Origin: Diphasiastrum complanatum
Lineage: Eukaryota; Streptophyta; Lycopodiopsida; Lycopodiales; Lycopodiaceae
DNA length: 64,000 nucleotides
Assembly (NCBI GenBank): GCA_029204225.1
Contig: CM055109.1
Location: forward strand, 35,226,496 to 35,290,495
Reading direction: 5' to 3'
Each line of letters opens with the position of its first letter. Position 1 is the first letter of the stretch. Under the pieces are notes generated by a model that made no database searches, was not told where the DNA came from, and worked only from the letters and a program-made list of their open reading frames with translations. Shown here in pieces: positions 34,265 to 49,800 of the stretch. The translations under genes were made by a program, and so were the position numbers.

Positions 34265-35187
34265 ATCAGCAAGCAGATCTATCAGAAAACCAGTGAACAG
34301 ATCTGTCAGACAACCAGCGAACAGATCTGTCAGACTACCAGCAAGCAGGTTTGTCAGACAACCAGTGATCAGCTTTGTCAGACAACCAGCGAACAAATCT
34401 GTCAGACTACCAGCGATTAGGTCTGTCAGTCAACCAGCGATTAGGTCTGTCAAACTACCAGCAATCAGGTCTGTCAGCAGACTACCAGCTCACCAGCTCT
34501 ATCAGACTACCAGCGAACCAGCTCTGTCAGACTACCAGCGAACCAGATGCCAGATCTGTTCTGCAGTGATCCAAGATTATAGACAGTTAGTGATATGCAG
34601 GCAATCAATCTAATTTCTGCAATCAGTAGGTAGCAATCCAACATGCAGCCAACAATCTGTCTCAATCAATCTCAGTGATAGACACCAGCAGCAGATTTGA
34701 TACCACCAGTAGCGATTCAGGTGCAGAGATCCAGATCCGTTGTCTTCCCGACACCGTCAACTCTGCAAACAGGTCTGTCAGACAACCAGTGATCAGCTCT
34801 GTCAGACAACCAACGAACAAATCTGTCAGACTACTAGCGAACATGTCTGTTAGTCAACCAGCGATCAGGTCTGTCAGACTACCAGCGATCAGGTCTGTCA
34901 GACTACCAGCGAACCAGCTCTGTCAGACTACCAGCAAACCAGCTCTGTCAAACTACCAGCGAACCAGATGCCAGATCTGTTCTGCAGTGATCCAAGATTA
35001 TAGACAGTCAGTGATCTGCAGACAATCAATCTAATTTCTTCAATCAGTAGGCAACAATCCAACATGCAGCCAACAATCTATCTCAATCCATCTCAGTGAT
35101 AGACACCAGCAGCAGATTTGATACCACCAGCAGCGATTCAGGTGCAGAGATCCAGATCCGTTGTCTTCCCAACACCGTCAACTCCGC
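34265..35187 (-). repeat. 24-bp minisatellite blocks and 421-bp duplication in a Copia leader
   Basis: On the + strand the unit is AACCAGCGAACAGATCTGTCAGAC or a close variant. About 11 units lie at 34265-34545 and about 8 at 34765-34965. The unique sequence after each block (34540-34765 and 34961-35187) is nearly identical at an offset of 421 bases. The array sits between gag and the primer-binding site of the antisense Copia element. The open frames across it on the + strand are a by-product of the 24-base period. Confidence 0.85.
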
Positions 35188-35257
35188 ATGCAGCTTTGTC
35201 TCCTCCAATTAATCTTCTTGCAACCCTGCAAATAAACTCTCTCTTACCAAATAGCTT

Positions 35258-35759: not shown

Positions 35760-36970
35760 AGCATTCTGCAAAGTTCAAATAAGTCACAACGAACGTCGAA
35801 ATCCATAAAAAACAGTAAATGGCAAATGCAAATTGCAATGTTCAATGTAACGTCAATGTTGAATGTGCATTATAGACTAAAGTGCATACATGGACAACAT
35901 TTTCTTTTCCGACTTCCTCAATGGCCTGTGAGATGTACTCAAACAATCTCCTGTCATCCAATGCCAAGCCTGCCTCCGATGTATCAATGGACTTCAAAAA
36001 CATGGTGTCCATGCAAGAAGACACCAATATATTCACAATATGACGCCTCCTTACATCGGTCCAACCATCTGATAGGATGGTGCATTCATGCCTAGAACGT
36101 TCAACAAAAGTTTCAACATTCAAGTAACTTGGAGGCCTCAGGCTACTAGCTAGAGCACCAAAGAGTCAAGAGTCAAGAGTCAAGTATAAAGTTGAAATTT
36201 GAAAGTTGAGACTTTTAACTTACAAATTTGAAAGTGCAAACTCGAAACTTGAAAGTACAAAGGTTTTTAAGGAACTAAGGTATACCTCGTCCATGACTTC
36301 CTGATGGGCTGTAGATCATTTTCCACGGACTGCCGCTCAACATATAGCTCTCTTGTCCTTGACTGCGCCATGCTTGAGCCTTCCCACTCAGCACCGATAC
36401 AAATACTGCTCGTATCCCTCCATGCAGGGGTCATAGCCACATGAAAGGGGAGGTCGCACAAGTAAAAGCACCTCCTAACAGCAACAATAGTTGCATCCTT
36501 GTTCGACTGCTAGAAGGGTGCCACATAAATGTCCCTACCTCTAAGCTGTCCTCAACCCCTATCACCACCAGCCCTACCAGTAGCACTAGCGCCCGCTCCA
36601 CCTACTAGCACTGTCTAAGTCTCTCCAGAAGAAGAAATGGATGTGGAACTAGTACCAGCTACATGTTACGGCTGTGATGTGGAATCTCGGCACTCTGCCG
36701 CACCTGTAACAATGTATTATATTGCAAATGTTTAAACTTTAATGGATTATGTAATATGGTTGATGACAAAAGGTCACAAAGTCGCATGAGAGTCATCCCC
36801 GATCCCGGCAATCAGCAGTGACTTTGGTGCTTGCGTGCAAACAACGATCTCGTATCCTTGGAGAGGTAAGATGCACCCTTATATGAACGGGACCTCCTCC
36901 ATAAGTTTTCTGCAATACTTACAAGTCCACTTCTTTGTGCCTGACGTGCCATACCCTGAAATTTAGGATG
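35760..36970 (-). pseudogene. hAT transposase remnant (BED finger plus DUF659)
   Basis: Read on the minus strand, a BED-type zinc finger (KKWTCKYCRKLM, then YEIVVCTQAP) lies near 36930-36840. The pre-catalytic region (CDLPFHVAMTP) is at 36461-36267. The DUF659 catalytic block CTILSDGWTDVRRRHIVN is near 36085-36030, with EVGKENVV after it. The conserved Asp of SDGW is present. A stop (TAA) interrupts the finger, frames shift between blocks, and the C-terminal dimerisation domain is missing because the sequence stops near the Copia LTR at 35695. hAT elements move by cut-and-paste, but this copy is dead. Confidence 0.82.
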
Positions 36971-37111
36971 ACGTGATCCCATAGAGGATCCCGTTGTCTC
37001 GGCATAGCTAATAGCTATGAACTAATAACTTTGAACTTCACAGTAGTAAGTACTAATTTCAAAATTCAAAGCAAAAACTAATCCTAAACCCTAACTTCTA
37101 AGCTCTAAGTG

Positions 37112-37154
<43 letters not shown>
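37112..37154. repeat. (TC)n microsatellite at the 5' junction of LINE copy 1
   Basis: This TC run of about 43 bases stands directly before the 5' end of the first LINE in the chain. Matching runs stand at the other junctions. Confidence 0.95.
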
Positions 37155-37156
<2 letters not shown>

Positions 37157-38810
37157 GGCTATGGAGGGCGCCCTCCCTCCTCGCAGCTATGGTGGCACCC
37201 TCCTATCCCTCGCTGTCTCTCCATCTCCATCTTTGGCTTTCCCTTGCTGCCTGTCCCTCGCTGCCTGATCCTCGCTCCCTTGCTGACCATCGCCTTGCTG
37301 CTGACTATCGCTCCTTGCTGCCTGCCCATCGCTCCCTGTCCCTTCCTGTCTGACCATCGTTCTCTGTCCTGTCTCTCGCTGACCCTGCCCCTCCATCGCT
37401 GATCCTGTCCCTCATGCTTGTCCTTCACTGACCCTCACATCCTTGCTAACTGTCCCTTGCTGCCCTGGCTGACCACTGCCCCCTGCCCCTTGTCCCTTGC
37501 TGATCCGGTCCCTCCATCGCTGTCCCTCTCTCCTTTCCCTCCATCACCGTCCCTCCCTCTCTCTTTTGGCCCATCCTTGTATCTCTCTTCCGGACCATTA
37601 TGGTTGATTGGCAATCAGTGAATCGGAAGGGGAAGAAAACCCCTCCCCCTTCTCCTTTTGTCTTCTCAGCCATCCCTACTACGGCTCCAAATCCCTTTAC
37701 CTTGCCCCCTCCCTCTCCTGCTTCCTCTCCCTCGCCCATACCCCCCACTCCCGCAACCGCTACCTCTTCTCCTACTGCCACTACCCCCTCTACTCTTTCT
37801 TCCTCCTCTCCCTCTTTCACCCCTTCATCTTCATCCCCCCCATTGTCTCCGTCTCTTTCAGCTGAATTTTTATCTGGTTTCCCCCGTATCATTGATTTTC
37901 TTCGTGAGGACAATGCGTCCTTGCTTGCGATCATCAAGAAACAAGCATTCCAAATCTCCACTCTGGAGAACACGGTCTTGGCCCTACAGGGCAAAGTTGG
38001 CATTCTTGAGGTTGATGTTACTTATCTCAAGAATGAACTAGAATCAGATGAAGAGGAAGAAGAAGGAAGCGACAATGCGAATTCAGAAGACATGGCAAAG
38101 TAGCTGCAAGAACGGGTTCACTCCTTGGAGCAGCAACTTCAACAATCGAAGAGTTCTTGGGCCTACATGCTCAAGGGTTCTAAGCAAGTTATTTTTGAAT
38201 CCATTCAAGAACATCAAAAACGAGATCTCAAGGCCCTCAATGTCAGGGTTAGGGGAGCTTCTTTTGCGGGTAAGGACCTCGTGGCTGAGGCAAATGCTTT
38301 TATTCATTCCACCTTTGGTCTTAAAGAGGATGTCATATCTGCTGCTTGGGTGGGTAAGCTCCAATCCACCACAGTGTTTTTGCAATTCAGGGATGCTTTG
38401 TTTCGGCAAAAGTTTTTGTGTAAAAGAGGCTGCCTGAAGGGGTCTACTATTTTTATGGATGAAGACTTGACGCCCATTCAATGGACTGAGAGAAAGAAAA
38501 TTATCGCAGATGCCAAGGCCAATGGTTTCCGGACTCTTTTTCGAGACGGACGCCCTGTCTTGGTTAAAATTGCATAACTTAAAATTTCAGATTCTTCTCC
38601 CTCTCCTACGTGAGAGATGTTTTGAGCTACGGCCATTTATTTCCTCTCCTGCTTGAGAGATGAGCTTTCTTTACATAGCGATTTACATTTTACGTTTTAG
38701 TTTTAGTTTCGTTTTCTGTTGACGGCACTGTCCCGTCCGAGTTCTGTTTACTTTGTTGTACTACCTCTTTAGTCTGATATGCCTTTTGGCATGGAAAAGA
38801 CATTAATAAA

Positions 38811-38862
<52 letters not shown>
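37155..38862 (+). mobile_element. LINE copy 1: ORF1-only (half-LINE), complete 3' end
   Basis: A C/T-rich, Ser/Pro-type low-complexity leader (37155-37600) is followed by ORF1. A roughly 240-base 3' untranslated region follows, ending in CCTTTTGGCATGGAAAAGAC, an AATAAAG motif and (TC)n (38815-38862). ORF2 (endonuclease and RT) is absent altogether. The 3' terminus is shared with copy 2, which does carry ORF2 remnants. Mobility would need proteins from another element, as for mammalian HAL1. The next LINE starts immediately after the TC run. Confidence 0.75.
37600..38577 (+). pseudogene. LINE ORF1 protein with an in-frame TAG
   Basis: The ATG at 37600 opens MVDWQSVNRKGKKT, followed by a roughly 75-residue Ser/Pro/Thr-rich low-complexity segment. 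A coiled coil (about residues 105-145) and an acidic patch come next. A TAG at 38101-38103 interrupts codon 168, and the same frame continues to 38577 (about 325 residues in all). The second part has a leucine heptad region, an RRM-like block (KALNVRVRG) and a C-terminal domain (DEDLTPIQWTERKKI). This order resembles vertebrate L1 ORF1p (coiled coil, RRM, CTD), an RNA-binding chaperone, and not the zinc-knuckle ORF1 common in plant LINEs. The stop may be decay or, less likely, read through. Confidence 0.7.
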
Positions 38863-38865
<3 letters not shown>

Positions 38866-38938
38866 CGTGCGCGCCTTGATCCATTCAGCTCCACTGCAGC
38901 CCTATCCTCCCTCCATTGCTCCACTCATATGGCTTCGC

Positions 38939-39997
38939 GCAAGGTGGGAGCCAACTCCCCCCGCTCCCACCTCGCTCCATCTCCAGCCCCTCCATCGCTG
39001 GTTCCTCATCCTCCATCATTGGTTGCTCCAACAACTCTCCTGCCTCCAGCGCTACTGTTACAGACACCCAGGGGCCTTCAGCGCTGCTGTTATAGATATC
39101 TCCAATGATGCTGCCTTACCTACCTACAGCACTGCTGTAACCATCGCTGGCAGCAGTATTCCTACTGCTACCAGCACCTATACCACCTCCAATGATGCTG
39201 CCTCCATCGCTGCTGCAGTATCCCTACTACTCCCAATACCTCCACTGCCTCCAATGCTGCTGATCCATCGCTGGACAATCAGCTGCAGTAGTCTTTGAAT
39301 TTGCTGTCCCCTCATCGGAAGTGCTCTTCCAAGAATTCTCTTGTTGAAGAGGATATCTACACACCAAGAAAGGCATTTGAAGGGTATCTAGAAGCAGAGG
39401 TGGATGCTTTAAGACTCGAGGTACAAGAAGTTAAGCTGACAATGATGACGGTATTTCAAGATAACAGGGTTCTCAGGCAGAAAATTCAGACCTTGGAGGG
39501 AACGCCATCCCTAGTGACAAACAAAATTAACGAGCTGGAGCGACATCTGAGCGAACACAAGGAGCCTACAAAATCATGGGCTTCATTGTTCTAAAAAGAA
39601 GATGGTAATGCTGCTCTTATGTCTACTATCATTTCAGCTACTATCTCTGAAGAAAAACTACGTGACTTCAAATCTCTCAATGTCCGAGTTCGAGGTGTTC
39701 TTGACACTCAAGATGCTATGAAAGAGGCAAAATCCTTTTTAGATACTACATTGAGTTTCAATACTGATGGATTGGATAAGGCACGACGAACCAAAAAAGA
39801 CAATTCTACTCTCATTATCAAAAGAGGAAAGGACCAGAAAATTGAGACTCAAACCTAAATTAAAAGGTACACAGATTTTCTTGGATGAGGATCTTACATA
39901 TATCCAAGTTCAGGAACGTAAAAAAATTTTTCAGGAGGCTAAAGCATCAGGACGTTTTGCAGTTTATCCAGATGGTCAGGTTCGGTATTTGGATTGA
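38939..39997 (+). pseudogene. LINE copy 2 ORF1, frameshifted
   Basis: The ATG at 38939 gives MASRKVGANSPRSHLAPSPA, a Ser/Pro-rich start like that of copy 1. Frames then change. A coiled-coil block (YLEAEVDALRLEVQEVKLTM) lies at 39385-39450, an RRM-like block (KSLNVRVRG) near 39670-39700, and the CTD block (FLDEDLTYIQVQERKKIF) near 39876-39930, ending VRYLD and a stop. The domain order is the same as in copy 1. Confidence 0.68.
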
Positions 39998-40098
39998 GGT
40001 CCATCTACCTCCAGCACCTAGGAAGTTGGGGCTCTCGGGCGTAGGAGCAGCCCGAGACCCCATCCATATCACCCACATCACCTACATCCACCTCGCCT

Positions 40099-42950
40099 TT
40101 GTATCAAGCTATGGAACTGTAATGGCATTCATTCTTCATCAGTAGCAGGAGATTTAGAACTTCATTGCAAAGGGGGATATCCTTCTTTTCACAAAGACTT
40201 CATCTGATACCCATATTGCCTAAAACAATCTCAAAAAAAAAAAACGATTTTGCGCGATTCTGGGAAAATCCCGAAACGCGTTTCTGAATCGCGATTCTGA
40301 TCATGATTCAGAATCGCGGTGCATCTTTGGTATGGGATTGCCATGATATCTGCTGATGATGGTGGCCTAGTCTTTGCATATGGTGAGCATTTTCTTCTAT
40401 TGGGTGAGGCCCACGAGCTTGCCATTTTTTATGGCTTATGCTGATGATGGTGGCCTGGTCTCTGCATATGGTGAGCATTTTCTTCTATTGGGTGAGGCCC
40501 ACGAGCTTGCCATTTTTAATGGCTTATCTTGTTGGCTGACTTCTGGAGACTATGCTTGCCACTCCCATAGTGGTGGGGATAGTGTGTGGACTATATCATG
40601 GGGTCACCATCTCTTCTACCCTTTCTATCTAACTTTATTGTTTCTCCCACCACATTATATGACCATTCCTTTCTTTCCATCAATTTGGGCTCAGTGTTGA
40701 ACCTCTCTCCTTCTAATCCTTCTTATATGGAATGTGCCCCTGTTTACATGTTCAATAATGCTTAAACTCATCTCTACCAAGATGCTCTCTCCCCCATACT
40801 CTGTAATTTTCCATACGATAGCCCACTCCAATCCCAAACATCTTTCCTTACTATAGCTCTTCATACTGCCGCTTCCATGGCCTTCCCATCCACATATCGT
40901 AGGAAATCCACGTATACGAAGCTTCATCATCCTCACCAATCTTGGTATGATGATATATGCAAACAACTTCACCTTCAAGTCAACACTGCACAATCCCCCC
41001 ATCTTCGGCATCTCAGACACCTATATAGCTAGCTATCTTGTTATAAAAAACGCATATACGAAACTTTTGAAGGGAAATGCCTTGTGGATCTTCTATATAG
41101 TTCTTCATCTGTTGCTTTTTGGCGTGAGGTTATTCCTCGTGCCCACCTCCATTGCTGAGAGATTTATGTAGTTGGACTGAATATGCCACCTTACTTTATA
41201 CTTTTCGCATTGATCTGATTGTTATATCTCCTAGTCCCTCCACTTTCTCCTTTTTCACTCCTAGCGTGGTCTCCCTTACCATTGAGAAAATGAAGACTCA
41301 CCGTGCTCGGGATGTCGAGGATCTACAGAGAGAGTATATTGTTGTTTTGTGGATTTCCAAAAAGCGTTCGACTCTATCCCATGTCATATGCTTATCCAAA
41401 GGCTGAGAGATCTTGATTTTACTGATACCATATTGGCTATCATGGCACTCTATGAGCAGGTTTTGGGATGCTTCAGATTAGATGAAGGTCTCTCGGAGAG
41501 AGTTAGGAGCACTGTTGGGGTGAAGCAGGGTTGTTCCCTCTCCCCCTCGCTCTTTTGGTTTGTATATTCATGAGCTTGAGAGAGCCATCAATCAACATGG
41601 TGGTATTGGCTGCAGGCATGGTGATATACTCATTTCCATTTTGCTTCATGCTGATGATGTGGCCTTGCTATCTGCATCTAGCGAGGGGTTGTAGTGGCAT
41701 TTGGATACATTACAGGTTTTTGGAGACTTATTTGGTTTGAATGTGCATACCAGGAACATCAATGTTATGATCTTTAATACCTCCAGGACCTTTATGCAGC
41801 GACAATTATTCACTCTAGGGGGACAACCACTTGAGGTGGCATCCCCTTACACCTATTTGGGGACTTCCTTCACGGCTTTCAGTATGACACACTGCCACAA
41901 CTAGACTACATAAGGGGCATGTTGCGTTGGGTACTCTCGAGCACTTTTGCTTCATCAAGCACATTCGGGATGCCCCGATTAAGTGCAACCTATTTGATAC
42001 TATTGTTGCACCCACAATTATGTATGCTGTAGAGGCTTGGTGCTCCGCGATTCCTGAGTCAGAGTGGACTAGCATATGCTTGTACGCATGATCTGGGCCA
42101 AACCATCTGTTCCTCGCCAGGTTATACTTGCTGAGTTTGTCATTATTCCACTACGGGTTGAGGCTATTTTCAGGTTGATCATATGCATCCAGAGCGTGAT
42201 GAGTCTTCCGGTTTCACGATATCCACACACAGCTTTTCTCTCTTCTCAACAACTTCATTATTTCCAAGGTCATCAACTATCATGGTACTCCCAGGCTTCT
42301 CGTCTGCTATGCATATACGACATTGACATTTCTGATCTATTAGTGGTTTCTCATTAGTATATCAGGGGGGTTATTTATCATGCATATTCTCAAATGACTT
42401 GGCAGGGGCCCTTGGGGGTCAAACTAGACTTCTATTGCTCCAGTTTCCTAGAGCTAGACAATGTTGGGGTCCCAGTTTTGCCACGTTATTTTGGATAGCT
42501 GACTTTCATGTTGCCTCCATTTTACTCTGGGTCAGTCCAAGTTTCCTCACATCAACTATATGTGGAGACGGGGCGATTCTAGGGCATCCCTCATATGAGC
42601 AGATTTTGTCAGATGTGCACATTAGGGGAGGTGAAGTCAGAGGAGCATTTTCTATTTAGATGCCTTGTCTATTATGGGATTCGAGGACGCTATCATTGTC
42701 TTTTCCGGGATTCTCCAGTCACTTCACTCACTCATTTTATACGTTGACCCTCGATGTGTGGCACTGTTGCTTCGCGAGATGTTCCTACTTCGTAGAGACA
42801 TTTGTCAGAGAGATCAATCAGTATGGATACCATGACTCCCAACAGACTCAGATTACCTCCTGGAGGTGATCTAGAGCAGATGCCGATATTTTGTTAGAGG
42901 ATGAGTCAGATATCTTACCTCGGGATACTCATCACAATCGCGGATAGCGT
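40099..42950 (+). pseudogene. LINE copy 2 ORF2: endonuclease, RT, zinc-binding end
   Basis: ORF2 of LINEs nicks the target and reverse transcribes from it. The endonuclease starts near 40099 (IKLWNCNGIHS), and its C-terminal part (EAHELAIFNGL, then SGGDSV) lies at 40351-40610 with an internal 88-bp duplication. RT motifs are DFQKAFDS near 41350, GVKQGCSLSPSLF near 41517 and HADDVALLS at 41647-41673, a variant of the catalytic ADD box. A YLGTSF block follows near 41855. The zinc-binding C-terminus (FCQMCTLGEVKSEEHFLFRC) is near 42605-42665. Frames shift repeatedly. An AT-run plus near-palindrome at 40233-40325 interrupts the endonuclease and may be a separate small insertion. Confidence 0.75.
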
Positions 42951-43280
42951 ATTGCCTCCAGACCACATGTTACAATTACCAGGAGACTTCCCAGACCTAG
43001 AGCTCGTGGGCGTAGGCCCACTGCTTCAGCACCTGCATCTTCTTTTATACTTACTTTCTTCAGCAGTGTTTCGGTGGTGACATGATCTATCACACAGTCC
43101 GGACGGTTATTGTATAGTCTGAGAGTAGTTTAGAGATTTTGTCTGGTCTTGATAGACCAATCACATTAGCTAGTAGTTGTTGTTATGGAGACATTTATAT
43201 GCTCCTTTCAGTATTTATCACACTTGAGATGTATTTATTTGGTCTTATATGCCTTTTGGCATTAAAAGACGTTAATAAAG

Positions 43281-43368
<88 letters not shown>
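43281..43368. repeat. (CTTT)n-(TC)n microsatellite joining LINE copies 2 and 3
   Basis: A CTTT run (43281-43327) passes directly into a TC run (43328-43368). The left side is the 3' end of LINE copy 2 and the right side is the truncated 5' end of copy 3. Confidence 0.95.
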
Positions 43369-43371
<3 letters not shown>

Positions 43372-44420
43372 TCATGGGGTCACCTTCATCCATTCCCCTC
43401 ATTCACAGCTTCCATATCTCTCGTATTACTCTCTCTGATCATTTGTTCCTTTCCTTCGCTATTGGCCACCTTCCACCATCGCAATCTCCACCACAATCCA
43501 CACTACCCCGTGCACCCAAATAACACTTTCCACCCCCTCTACATACCACTCTACCAAGAATCCCTTGCCTCCTTACTTCACTTCTTTCCACAGAACAAAC
43601 CACTGGAGTCTCAAGCCGCCTTCCTCACCACCTCTCTCCATACTGCTGCAACTTTGGCTTTTCCATCTAAACCTCAAAACGACAAACCAGCCCATCTGCG
43701 ATCACGTCGACCTTTCCATCCACCATGGTACGAAGTTTATCCCTCATGCTCCACCCCCTCTTCTGGACGATCTACATATTTGGATTCTGGACCGACTATG
43801 CTACCCAACTTTACACTATACCCACTGATATTACGCCCATCTCCATCTCTCCTCGACCTTCAGACTTCACCTTTTTCACCCCTGATTTGGTCCTGGAGGC
43901 TGGCAACAATCAAAAGACCGAAAACCCATCGAACTAGAGACATTGAAGATCTTGAATCCGAGTAACTGATTCACGCCTCCGACACTCTTGCCCCTACACT
44001 ATCCACTCTCCTTAACCATGTTGTTGTTGAAGGCTTCCCATCCTCTTGGTTCACCAACATCATGCATCCCATCTATAAAAATGGTGACGCCATGTTACCT
44101 AGTAAATACCGCACTATCATGATTGTGGGCATGTTCTCACGAAGTTATATGGCACCATCCTTCAGTTTGCAGTTAGCTCAGAGGCAGAGTCCGGGAGATT
44201 GCATGCATTGGGTCAGGCAGGGTTCCGCGCTCATTACTCCACTAGGGATCACATATTCATGCTTCGAGCTCTCATTGAGGAAACTAGGCACAAGAAAGAA
44301 AAGGTTTACTGTACTTCAGGAAAGCCTTTGACTCTGTCCCACGTTCTCTACTTATCCAGAGACTACGCGACTTGGGTTTCTCGACAGATATTATTCTAGC
44401 TATCATGGGACTTCTTGTCA
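43369..44420 (+). pseudogene. LINE copy 3: 5'-truncated endonuclease-RT fragment
   Basis: It begins against (TC)n in the last part of the endonuclease (LMGSPSS, related to the SWGHHL region of copy 2). The linker and pre-RT block follow (FTFFTPDLVLEAGNNQKTEN near 43868-43930). The RT N-terminus (GFPSSWFTNIMHPIYKNGDA near 44030-44095, and DSVPRSLLIQRLRDLGF near 44331-44380) ends at IILAIMGLL near 44410, where similarity stops before the catalytic box. Several frameshifts occur. No 3' terminus is seen, so the copy is cut at both ends. Confidence 0.72.
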
Positions 44421-44623
44421 CTTCTCGACTTACTTCGGCACTGACGGCTAGGTCCATGCAGCAGTAACCCTCACCTTGCATCTTCAACTACTTGCAAGTG
44501 ACGGGTTTGTTGGGTCGTTGGTTACAAAACACTTGACCTAGCTTGGCCCAAATGCCTAACCATGGTTACGGGCCATCGCCATAGCTTACTGTTGACTGGC
44601 CCTTTGGTAAATGAATTGGTCTG

Positions 44624-46867
44624 AGGTCATTGTCAGGTCCTGGAGTGGGGCCTAGCAATCTCTATGATTTTTTCTTATCTGCTGCGTTTAAATGCAATCA
44701 TTTTAGGATCCAGCATGTTAGATCTCTCAGGGACTTCCTTTGAGCTTGTGTCACAGATACCTTTTTGTCTGAGTACCTTATTCATACTTAACATGTTTCA
44801 AAATTCTTCTTGTACAATGATCAGTTCTTTGACCAAGCAATGTAAATATTCATTGTATTTTTTAATGTGATCCTTTCAAGATCTAATCTATCTTAAAAAG
44901 GCAACAATCTACTAGTTCCTATGTTTTGCGGTCTTTAGGCTTGGCACCCATCTTCGTAAACATATTCCAAACTTGGCTACTGTTGATGCTTTTGAATGCA
45001 CTCATGTAAAGATAACTGCATTTTCTCCAGTAGGTGCCATAAAAAAACTTGAATATTCTGTTTTAAAATTTTCAATGGTAGTTGAATCACCACCCTTTGG
45101 ATAGAAATTTCATTATTTAAAGCTGTGCTTCTATCAATCAATGAACTTGAATAAACTTAATCATGCATTGGTGCTTAAATTGGTAGCTAGATTGTAAATG
45201 ATTTTATTGATCCTAGAAAGCTCATAGAACTCTCTTTTGCCTTTCGAAGCTGATGACATTACTACTATACGCAGTAAAATTAGCTTATGAGATTCAAAGT
45301 TTTGTGTGGAAAAGCTCATTCATGATTCTTGTAGCTACTACAAGGTGATGATAATCAATGCAAAGCTTTGTCAGGTCATTGTCAGGTCCTGGAGTGGGGC
45401 CTAGCAATCTCTATGATTTTTTCTTATCTGCTGCGTTTAAATGCAATCATTTTAGGATCCAGCATGTTAGATCTCTCAGGGACTTCCTTTGAGCTTGTGT
45501 CACAGATACCTTTTTGTCTGAGTACCTTATTCATACTTAACATGTTTCAAAATTCTTCTTGTACAATGATCAGTTCTTTGACCAAGCAATGTAGATATTC
45601 ATTGTATTTTTTAATGTGATCCTTTCAAGATCTAATCTATCTTAAAAAGGCAACAATCTACTAGTTCCTATGTTTTGCGGTCTTTAGGCTTGGCACCCAT
45701 CTTCGTAAACATATTCCAAACTTGGCTACTGTTGATGCTTTTGAATGCACTCATGTAAAGATAACTGCATTTTCTCCAGTTAGTGCCATAAAAAAACTTG
45801 AATATTCTGTTTTAAAATTTTCAATGGTAGTTGAATCACCACCCTTTGGATAGAAATTTCATTATTTAAAGCTGTGCTTCTATCAATCAATGAACTTGAA
45901 TAAACTTAATCATGCATTGGTGCTTAAATTGGTAGCTAGATTGTAAATGATTTTATTGATCCTAGAAAGCTCATAGAACTCTCTTTTGCCTTTCGAAGCT
46001 GATGACATTACTACTATACGCAGTAAAATTAGCTTGTGAGATTCAAAGTTTTGTGTGGAAAAGCTCATTCATGATTCTTGTAGCTACTACAAGGTGATGA
46101 TAATCAATGCAAAGCTTTGTCAGGTCATTGTCAGGTCCTGGAGTGGGGCCTAGCAATCTCTATGATTTTTTCTTATCTGCTGCGTTTAAATGCAATCATT
46201 TTAGGATCCAGCATGTTAGATCTCTCAGGGACTTCCTTTGAGCTTGTGTCACAGATACCTTTTTGTCTGAGTACCTTATTCATACTTAACATGTTTCAAA
46301 ATTCTTCTTGTACAATGATCAGTTCTTTGACCAAGCAATGTAGATATTCATTGTATTTTTTAATGTGATCCTTTCAAGATCTAATCTATCTTAAAAAGGC
46401 AACAATCTACTAGTTCCTATGTTTTGCGGTCTTTAGGCTTGGCACCCATCTTCGTAAACATATTCCAAACTTGGCTACTGTTGATGCTTTTGAATGCACT
46501 CATGTAAAGATAACTGTATTTCTCCAGTTAGTGCCATAAAAAAACTTGAATATTCTGTTTTAAAATTTTCAATGGTAGTTGAATCACCACCCTTTGGATA
46601 GAAATTTCATTATTTAAAGCTGTGCTTCTATCAATCAATGAACTTGAATAAACTTAATCATGCATTGGTGCTTAAATTGGTAGCTAGATTGTAAATGATT
46701 TTATTGATCCTAGAAAGCTCATAGAACTCTCTTTTGCCTTTCGAAGCTGATGACATTACTACTATACGCAGTAAAATTAGGTTGTGAGATTCAAAGTTTT
46801 GTGTGGAAAAGCTCATTCATGATTCTTGTAGCTACTACAAGGTGATGATAATCAATGCAAAGCTTTG
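44624..46867. repeat. 749-bp tandem triplication, over 99 percent identical
   Basis: Copies start at 44624, 45373 and 46122, each beginning AGGTCATTGTCAGGTCCTGG. Only a handful of differences separate them: for example copy 1 has GTAAATATTC where copies 2 and 3 have GTAGATATTC, and copy 3 lacks one base near 46520. Copies 2 and 3 share more variants, so they separated last. An 83-codon frame recurs identically in copies 2 and 3, but it has no recognised motif and is not claimed as a gene. The unit resembles no transposon I know. An assembly artefact is unlikely because the copies differ. Confidence 0.97.
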
Positions 46868-49800
46868 AAAGTTGAAAAGAATGCTTAGCTGGCTTTTGTT
46901 CGCTCAGAAGCTTTGCTGAAATTTTAGGATCTGATAATGTGTGTTATTACACTTAATCTTTGCTTTAATTCAAGAGATTGTTTACTTCAAAATGGCTGTA
47001 TATTGTGGAGTTCATCCTGCAAAACTTTTACCTAAGCTGTATTGGAGTACATATTAATGCAAAGATTCATTGATGGCTTCGTTTTCTTCTCCTAAGGTCC
47101 TGATAGTATACTGTATGGCTTATGCGACTATAATTTGTGGTAACTTATTAGAAGCTTAAGTGCTGACACTGGACACAGGAGGCAACAGGCCCTCACGTTG
47201 TGTGATGTGTCCACGCTATTCAACTTGTTGACGATGATGTGTTTCATGTTGAAATGATTAATCTGGCTCTGTAAGGGAGTCATAAGTTAGTCTGCCACGG
47301 TTTGTTCGGTAATAGATGACGAGTGCCATGTTCTCTGGGTATTGTGGCGATTTGATCACTGGATGCAATTTAAGCTATAATTTAAATGCCCTGCAAAAAA
47401 AAGAAAGTCTGGCAGTCTCTTTAGCATTTATCTGTCCTTTTGTTAACGTTCAGCGTTTTTGCTCTGAAATAACTAAAAGGATGTTGAAATTGATGATATT
47501 GTTTATTTTCAGAAATCGTTAGAGCACATTTGAACTGCTGAAGGTGATGCCCATTGGAAATCAGATCTCAAGTGATCAAAAGTTGACATCAGGAATCTGT
47601 CCCCAAGAGCTTTTCAAGGATGAATCATGGATGAAAATGGTTCTGAAGGATCAAATTGTTGCAAAATATGGAGCAATCTCCATGACCATGAGGTGCATCC
47701 AAAAAGGGAGCACATATTTTTGGAGAATTAGGCAAGTGCAAGGACAAGCCTAAATCTATTTGCTTGCAATGAGGCTAAAAGGGAGAACGTTTCTTTGTGC
47801 AAGTGCAAGGACAAGCCCAGATCTATGTACTGGACTTATTTATTGCTGGTTTCAACCAAGAAAAGTCTACACAGGTAGCAGCTTATGCTTGGTTTGCACT
47901 TGATGGTTTGTCATTCCCATGCCTATTTTTGTTGGTTTTCTCAACATATGTAGTAATGTCAGTGTCTCCTTTTGCTTGTAAAATTGGAAATTGATCTAAC
48001 AAATTGTGTATCTAATTTAGTGGTTTGTGCAGAAATTCTCAACAGGAAAAGGATGATGTGACCACATGCATCAAGTTGCAATGAGTTGGTGAGCCAACTG
48101 GAAGAGCCTGCATAAGTGTTCCTGAAAGGGGCATATTTTTGGAAGAAAATTCAAATTCTTTTTCTAGAACAAGTGCAAAAATACATGTTTAGACGTAGCA
48201 ACTTACATAGTGAGGTGTTGTTTGGATTGCATAAGCTGGATCTCAAATTTCAAGTGATAGATTGCTGTTAAAAATATATGAGATTGAGTAGACTGCAATC
48301 CACGAGTCATTGACAATAATTGTCAAAACTGTGACTTAAATGATGTGTGCCACCATAATGGATTAATGATAGCACGAGCACATCCACATGATAAAGATGG
48401 GAAGAGCATGATCTTATAGGCAGTTTCAATGGCTTGGTAGAGAGTATGAGATAAGAACTTAACACACACATCAGCTGCAACAAATTGGTGACTATGAACA
48501 TTTGGAAAGCGAAGTTTTTTCAGTGTAATTATGATTATAGGGGAAATGCTGCATCACATTCTGAGGATTAATTAGGGGTCAAATAGCAGCAGCTGATACG
48601 TCTACGTAAGTAGTGTGTCTACAATAGATGGAGGTATGACATAATATGGGGTTAAGGTGCTTGCTAATTAGAAAGAGTGGTAGCATGAGACCGTAGGCAT
48701 TGCTATTAGCAATGGGCCAGCATGCAGATGGAATATATCATTTACAAAAATAGCTACTCTTGAGTTAGTTTTACTACTATTTAGTTTAAAGTATAGGGAA
48801 GTTGGATGGACAACTTGAAATTGATCGCCGGAAATTAAAAGAAAAAACTTTAGTGACACATCATAAATATTCATACCACTGTACTTGTGAAGGGTTGCTA
48901 TTTCTTGCAAACCCCAATTCGCATCTGCCACAAGGGCAAAACACTATTCCAAGCTAACTACCCTCCCCTGTGCCCCACCAAATCTCCCATTCCCTTGTAC
49001 TAAATATACGCTGTTTCAAGCTGTGCAATTAAATTTTAAGTAGACATTTGAAGATCATTACATTGTTACATAGTAAATGGCTCATGGTACATATGTTAAA
49101 TGTTAAATTCTGGAGTCAGTTTTTTGTTTATGTTATTAAGAAAAGATAAGAGGATATTACTTTGCCCTACTTGAACAAAATTTATGTGAGTACACTTCGT
49201 GAGGCCACAACAGTGCAACTATCAAAATTTCTAAAATGACTGCACAGATTTTTAAGGTAATTGTGGAGGTTAGGGTTCCCAGTGGTGTTACAAATATCAT
49301 TGGCATTTTAGTATGAAGAATGCCTTTAGAGCCCTTGCATTTTGTTGCCCCTCGTTTTTCAAGATTTCTTTACAATAGCAATATGATTAACAAGGTCACT
49401 AGAAGAGGATCAGGAATAATTTAAGGGATGGTTCTTTGTATAGGTCTTTATGGTACAAATCAGTGTAGTTTTTAATAAGAGACAAGGAATGATGGCATGA
49501 GAAGTATAACAATCAGAAATGCAAGTAAAGTGCCAGTTTTTGGTCCTAACAATTCGATCCAAGTTGTAGGGGGGAGAATGTCCATGCTTTGTGGAATCTC
49601 ATGAATCACCCCCGTGCATGCAAATGAGAGAAATACGTAAGATTGATACAATAATTAAGAAATAATCAAACATCTAATTAGCATACAAAAACAATCTCAT
49701 AAGCAAAATCACCTCCAAAGCACACATTTCGCTAACAACATTCTTCATATTTGTAAGCAACATGGGCTGCATGCATGGCTCCAATGCAGAAAACAAAATT

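Follow-up and report, generated by a model that had tools for sequence, protein, structure and literature searches.

(TC)n arrays as probable preferred, orientation-fixed targets of APE-type LINEs and their ORF1-only relatives in Diphasiastrum complanatum

To our knowledge, targeting of microsatellites by LINEs has been described only in animals. Kibi, a member of the Tx1 clade, is said to have been reported by Kojima and Fujiwara in 2004 as a (TC)n-specific LINE of fish, and the NeSL lineage of LINEs has a restriction-like endonuclease. The elements described here share with Kibi the target repeat, (TC)n, and an APE endonuclease but differ from it in their plant host, relaxed specificity, own (CTTT)n tail and ORF1-only dependants. 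An APE is used by target-specific elements of the Tx1 clade, and Togen elements of fish are (TG)n-specific, NeSL-related LINEs (PMC4640811, partial text). Togen is similar in having a microsatellite as a target; however, it is related to NeSL, whereas an Exo_endo_phos (APE) domain is present here. In the green lineage, nested LINE clusters are formed by Zepp of Chlorella and Coccomyxa, one cluster per chromosome having been inferred (PMC3446292, partial text), with an (A)n tail (PMC3747384, partial text). Clusters of nested LINE copies are common to both systems, but in place of one cluster per chromosome and an (A)n tail, TC arrays occur here along contig C1 as well as on the further chromosomes that were sampled. 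Lepidopteran RTE elements with SSR tails also associate a LINE with a microsatellite (PMC2887409, partial text), but there the LINE makes the microsatellite, while here the microsatellite precedes the LINE at the duplicated loci that were read. A plant LINE that targets microsatellites was not recognised in the literature searched, where coverage of subscription journals was limited; the preliminary description of the locus likewise knew of no such plant family.

The window analysed is a 64,000-nucleotide stretch of D. complanatum contig CM055109.1. Three copies are joined in it head to tail on the plus strand, between positions 37112 and 44420. A TC array read in the sequence at 37112-37154 forms the 5′ junction of copy 1 (37155-38814). 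By ORF1 homology and genome search, copy 1 is a non-autonomous element of a type repeated in the genome, 1.66 kb long, which consists of ORF1 (frames 37504-38103 and 38104-38577) and a LINE 3′ end and has no RT. The next TC array, also read in the sequence (38815 to ~38862), leads into copy 2 (38863-43280), a decayed LINE with ORF1 remains and a reverse transcriptase fragment at 41286-41573 (RVT_1, E = 4.8e-9). The (CTTT)n tail of copy 2 is followed by a TC array, together occupying 43281-43368, and this array is the 5′ junction of copy 3 (43369-44420), identified by reading and by a partial match to locus L085 as a LINE truncated at its 5′ side within the endonuclease. The terminus pattern TGCCTTTTGGCAT..AAGAC.TTAATAAAG is found twice, at 38780-38811 as the 3′ terminus of copy 1 (TGCC...TTAATAAAG) and at 43250-43280 as that of copy 2. 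The 3′ end of copy 3 is not preserved: near 44420 the copy gives way to other repeats, and as no 3′ terminus remains in the window, only its 5′ junction is informative. Thus, the TC repeats that the preliminary description placed at all three junctions, and the start of the truncated copy 3 directly against one of them, are borne out. Its picture of three LINEs end to end is correct as to the junctions but has to be amended for copy 1, which is not a whole LINE.

The 5′ flank of the chain (36890-37111, plus strand) is not LINE sequence and has a 91% identical paralogue, L086, at C1:100.47 Mb. The entire chain is present again at C17:48.15-48.16 Mb (L002) with 98-99% identity and different lengths of the CTTT and TC repeats; the two chains are therefore products of one duplication and not of two independent events. 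Other repeats in the window include a tandem array with units of 24, 72 and 421 bp (34267-35188) and, where copy 3 ends, a ~750-bp unit repeated directly about three times (44620-46900). TC runs were also seen by eye on the minus strand, at 12991-10960, 9250-9197 and 896-814. Behind one of them stands a LINE-like fragment whose terminus has diverged, and behind another a possible ORF1 start; in the third case a LINE-like terminus (ACATTAATAAAG) comes before the run.

A 1183-aa ORF2 contains an Exo_endo_phos domain (E = 2.5e-14) located N-terminal to RVT_1 (E = 1.6e-33). Since both domains are found in one ORF2, 5′ truncation is frequent and the 3′ end is constant, the elements can be assigned, at the level of sequence, to APE-type non-LTR retrotransposons (LINEs). 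The R2/NeSL (RLE) group, which has a restriction-like endonuclease and no APE, does not fit, Exo_endo_phos being present. In a PDB search, the RT was nearest to those of R2 and human L1. An RNase H domain is reported for plant L1 (PMC4640811, partial text), and no Pfam match to RNase H was obtained in the 1183-aa ORF2 at E values up to 0.05. An A-rich tail is found in 224 of 233 flowering-plant L1 families (PMC3747384, partial text). The A-rich tail of angiosperm L1 is absent here, the tail being (CTTT)n, and neither (CTTT)n nor (TC)n occurs among the plant and algal LINE tails tabulated in the available part of PMC3747384.

The genome (1.74 Gb, 5,176 contigs, the large ones numbered to at least C23) was searched with the terminus pattern. 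The exact pattern matched 3,484 times (1,719 + 1,765), while its reversed control gave no matches genome-wide. A shorter terminus with (TC)5 within 12 bp had 2,022 forward matches (the reverse-strand count, 8,674, is inflated by overlapping matches counted repeatedly), and the same terminus with (GA)5 within 12 bp had a single match in the genome. A sample of 90 copies was then composed of the first 90 exact termini listed on one chromosome, C1, up to 51.3 Mb; flanks of 1.5 kb on each side were fetched for the first 30, and 750 bp upstream plus 200 bp downstream for the other 60, with a 5-kb extension for six. In 72 of the 90 copies a TC run of at least 5 units lay no more than 60 bp from the terminus, and no copy had a 3′ GA run, i.e., the orientation of LINEs at TC is almost always one way. 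In most of the 18 copies that lack 3′ TC, short CTTT units give way to unrelated DNA; L010 and L076 have CTT units, and in a few copies a short stretch of TC is present.

The abundance of TC behind the terminus is also what speaks for a rival view, that the LINEs carry or make a TC tail of their own and so seed microsatellites where they land, TC at the 5′ side being a coincidence or a later expansion. LINE-made microsatellites are documented (PMC2887409, partial text). We consider this view improbable. Because copies without 3′ TC end mostly in CTTT units, we attribute the TC to the target and regard (CTTT)n as the main form of the tail that belongs to the element. Two further subfamilies whose own tails differ, represented by L085 (TTAATAATAATAATTC..) and L007 (..CTTCTTC), run into TC as well. 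In 5 cases out of 64, (AC)n or (TA)n follows the TC run directly, which looks like a pre-existing compound microsatellite. Simple repeats other than TC have also been entered, (CTT)n at L076 and (TG)n at L153, which suggests a wider taste for such repeats.

A tail cannot account for TC upstream of a truncated 5′ end that has no LINE before it. The 5′ ends of the 90 copies were sorted by a script run with simple repeats masked, in which the TC class required at least 4 units within 25 bp of the break. No end was reached in 24 copies, LINE sequence continued within 150 bp upstream in 31 and was found further upstream in 8; of the rest, 14 had TC at the break and 13 did not. Two of the latter, L052 and L099, were removed as breaks made by an LTR element, leaving 25 resolved truncations, 14 at TC (L016, L027, L029, L030, L047, L059, L062, L066, L068, L070, L079, L083, L096 and L101) and 11 elsewhere (L009, L011, L018, L046, L049, L077, L084, L097, L102, L110 and L111). 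The TC run is at least 40 bp long at nine of the 14 breaks and only 8-12 bp at five; at L059 the break is separated from the run by 14 bp, and the L083 fragment, ~49 bp long, is embedded in the centre of a TC array. Among those counted as non-TC, the L077 break adjoins a (TC)n(TA)n tract on its (TA)n side, and L084 and L097 terminate in CA, as LTRs do. The eight copies with LINE further upstream comprise L010 and L023, which are interrupted LINEs, contiguous in the reference, L034, L037 and L061, which look rearranged, and L028, L071 and L112, which are possibly genuine truncations outside TC; if they are included, the count at TC becomes 14 of 28.

The expected frequency is far lower. Given the orientation, 0.5-1% of window positions adjoin a TC run of at least 4 units, and within TC-rich LINE loci 5% do; the binomial probabilities of 14 out of 25 are 4e-22 and 2e-12, respectively, for copies that are not fully independent. 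GA was found at the 5′ break in none of the 90 copies. Thus, as the preliminary description had argued from copy 3, truncated 5′ ends lie against TC far more often than by chance, and the bulk of them is not in non-TC sequence, though by a narrow margin (14 of 25, or 14 of 28 with the three doubtful copies). Almost fully truncated copies abutting (TC)5 gave 31 overlapping matches at 16 places genome-wide, at least three of which are possible alternative-haplotype copies, and none abutting GA was found in the genome. Several of these junctions read TCTC joined directly to TTATATGCC, which is compatible with joining by microhomology.

LTR-like insertions nested in LINEs (L010, L023, L052, L099) look like 5′ truncations, and because of them a naive survey of flanks would overcount non-TC sites. 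The L052 break is secondary: in its paralogues L090 and L091 the flank leads on to a motif resembling TGGTATCAGAGC, which we take to be a primer-binding site, and the flank is accordingly interpreted as an LTR end. At L099 the break is made by a repeat ending in ..CTAACA, read as an LTR end, that is also present at L117 and L118. The non-TC breaks of L010 and L023 are likewise secondary, the LINE resuming upstream.

On the 3′ side, TC is present in 9 of the 11 non-TC truncations versus 11 of the 14 TC truncations, and TC at the two ends is thus uncorrelated (Fisher p = 1.0). TC at the 3′ side only could result from insertion at the edge of an array or loss of the upstream target, or equally from a TC tail of the element itself. 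The own-tail view draws on these nine copies, and on L102, where 3′ TC is present and the paralogue L116 continues into non-TC sequence, and L047, whose paralogues L092 and L093 have no TC at the 5′ junction.

ORF1-only elements probably occupy the same kind of site. The genome search with copy 1 scored 40 of 818 candidates, the window and 39 other places, each of the latter aligned over ~1.17 kb or more at 82-98%, and copy 1 ORF1 matches the LINE ORF1 of L085. This half-LINE family is abundant; its members share the LINE 3′ terminus, have TC at the 3′ side and a long CT-rich 5′ region, and are presumably mobilised by autonomous LINEs. A second sample was made of the first 20 ORF1-only copies that start at query positions 443-451, with two unplaced contigs omitted, and both ends were read. 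L139/L141 and L150/L154 are duplicates, leaving 18 distinct loci; the 5′ ends lie beyond the fetched stretch, and therefore the 3′ side alone was counted. One copy, L153, is the (TG)n case mentioned above, and L142 lies in a CTT-rich non-TC site. Seven of the 20 are followed by an internally truncated sense LINE that starts within ~12 bp of the TC end; these are six distinct loci (L140, L146, L150=L154, L151, L157 and L158), L157 resting on weaker matches. The junction between copies 2 and 3 of the window is therefore of a common type. Other ORF1-only copies are followed by an apparent LINE start (ATGGC.. just after TC), for which no BLAST match was obtained.

Truncated 5′ ends placed directly against the tail of another LINE are thus common, as they should be if the reverse transcriptase jumped in a single event from truncated LINE RNA to the TC end of another RNA and laid down a whole chain at once; the L035 junction even joins two LINEs without TC. 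But no LINE was found upstream, in the stretch fetched, of the TC-flanked copies L016, L029, L030, L059, L066 and L096, and we regard such template jumping as very unlikely to be the general origin of the chains. We give equally little credit to assembly of LINE fragments by recombination between TC arrays. The arrays are long and numerous, and whole chains have been segmentally duplicated (L002, L139/L141, L150/L154), but recombination within TC moves the sequences located outside the array and cannot by itself set an internal position of a LINE against TC.

Duplicated loci with and without a LINE bear on all these alternatives. The strongest pair is L077 (C1:33.0 Mb) and L085 (C1:77.1 Mb), whose flanks are 100% and 99% identical and which contain the same older truncated element. 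At L077 the terminus of the older element is followed by uninterrupted TC and then by GTATATAT.., while at L085 a LINE from a different subfamily, 4.9 kb long, interrupts the same TC tract and has TC on both sides, the same GTATATAT flank coming next. This LINE has both ORFs open, ORF1 with 366 aa and ORF2 with 1,183 aa. TC therefore preceded the LINE, and insertion was sequential. A single template-jumping event does not produce a duplicate that has the older element alone and another in which an extra LINE follows it, and recombination does not explain how an element whose two ORFs are open was gained between flanks that are otherwise almost identical. At L086, compared with the window on the 5′ flank (the 3′ flanks not being comparable), the TC array is in the same place and non-LINE sequence follows it, so the array came first relative to the window copy. 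At L094 (C22) a TC array stands before the 3′ flank of L066 (88%, BLAST); the upstream stretch gave no BLAST match to the L066 5′ flank, to which it is similar by eye in the alignment, and L094 is probably an empty paralogue of L066, which carries a truncated copy. At L087 (C3) the 5′ flank of L030 (95%) is followed by TC in the same place and then by another LINE ORF1 (E = 4e-13).

Other loci were less simple. L009 entered a non-TC site, since its paralogue L088 reads GCATCAATTCCTACTGG without TC. The 5′ flank of L028 is present also on a second contig. Searches for empty sites of L018, L029, L059, L011 and L096 found only places that also carry the insertion, no allelic empty site was found among the loci compared, and no target-site duplication could be read inside TC.

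The TC arrays free of LINE at L077, L086 and probably L094, together with the CTTT tails, lead us to reject an own TC tail as the general explanation; it may still apply to copies with TC at the 3′ side only. Template jumping and array recombination may add some junctions, but L085 and the TC-flanked copies without an upstream LINE are not explained by them. We conclude that (TC)n arrays are, with high probability, preferred and orientation-fixed targets of a group of APE-type LINEs and of their ORF1-only dependants. The preference is strong and not absolute. The TC targeting put forward in the preliminary description is therefore upheld as a preference, by the truncated breaks (14 of 25 against 1-5% expected by chance, with GA at 0 of 90) and by L077/L085, L086 and probably L094. 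Strict TC specificity of the family is rejected, given L009 with its paralogue L088 and the 11 truncations out of 25 that are not at TC, and the (CTT)n and (TG)n sites of L076 and L153 also depart from strictness.

Insertion might proceed as follows. The RNA would probably end in ...TTAATAAAG(CUUU)n. The endonuclease would nick the GA strand of a TC array, and the GA end so released could serve as the primer for copying the RNA from its CUUU tail. The upstream end, in many cases truncated, would be rejoined into the array or at its edge, often by TC or CT microhomology. Where the array is left on both sides with its polarity, it could be hit again in the same orientation, yielding head-to-tail chains. 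Arrays without a LINE at duplicated loci, and the array remaining on both sides of the LINE at L085, are observed.

A broader proposal, whose chances we put at slightly under even, is that a lineage of plant APE LINEs evolved a preference for (TC)n independently of the animal Tx1/Kibi elements, that several subfamilies with different 3′ tails and an ORF1-only parasite share this landing pad, and that the system, since insertion can leave the pad on both sides, turns ordinary microsatellites into self-extending one-way arrays. The elements, present in thousands of copies, would represent microsatellite targeting by LINEs in a plant. The L085 insertion, with both ORFs open, is recent enough to separate two near-identical duplicates. 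The preference of an APE for a simple repeat, and the resolution of 5′ truncation in the repeat or at its edge, are therefore testable here. For SSR markers it is relevant that many TC microsatellites of this genome are sites of LINEs.
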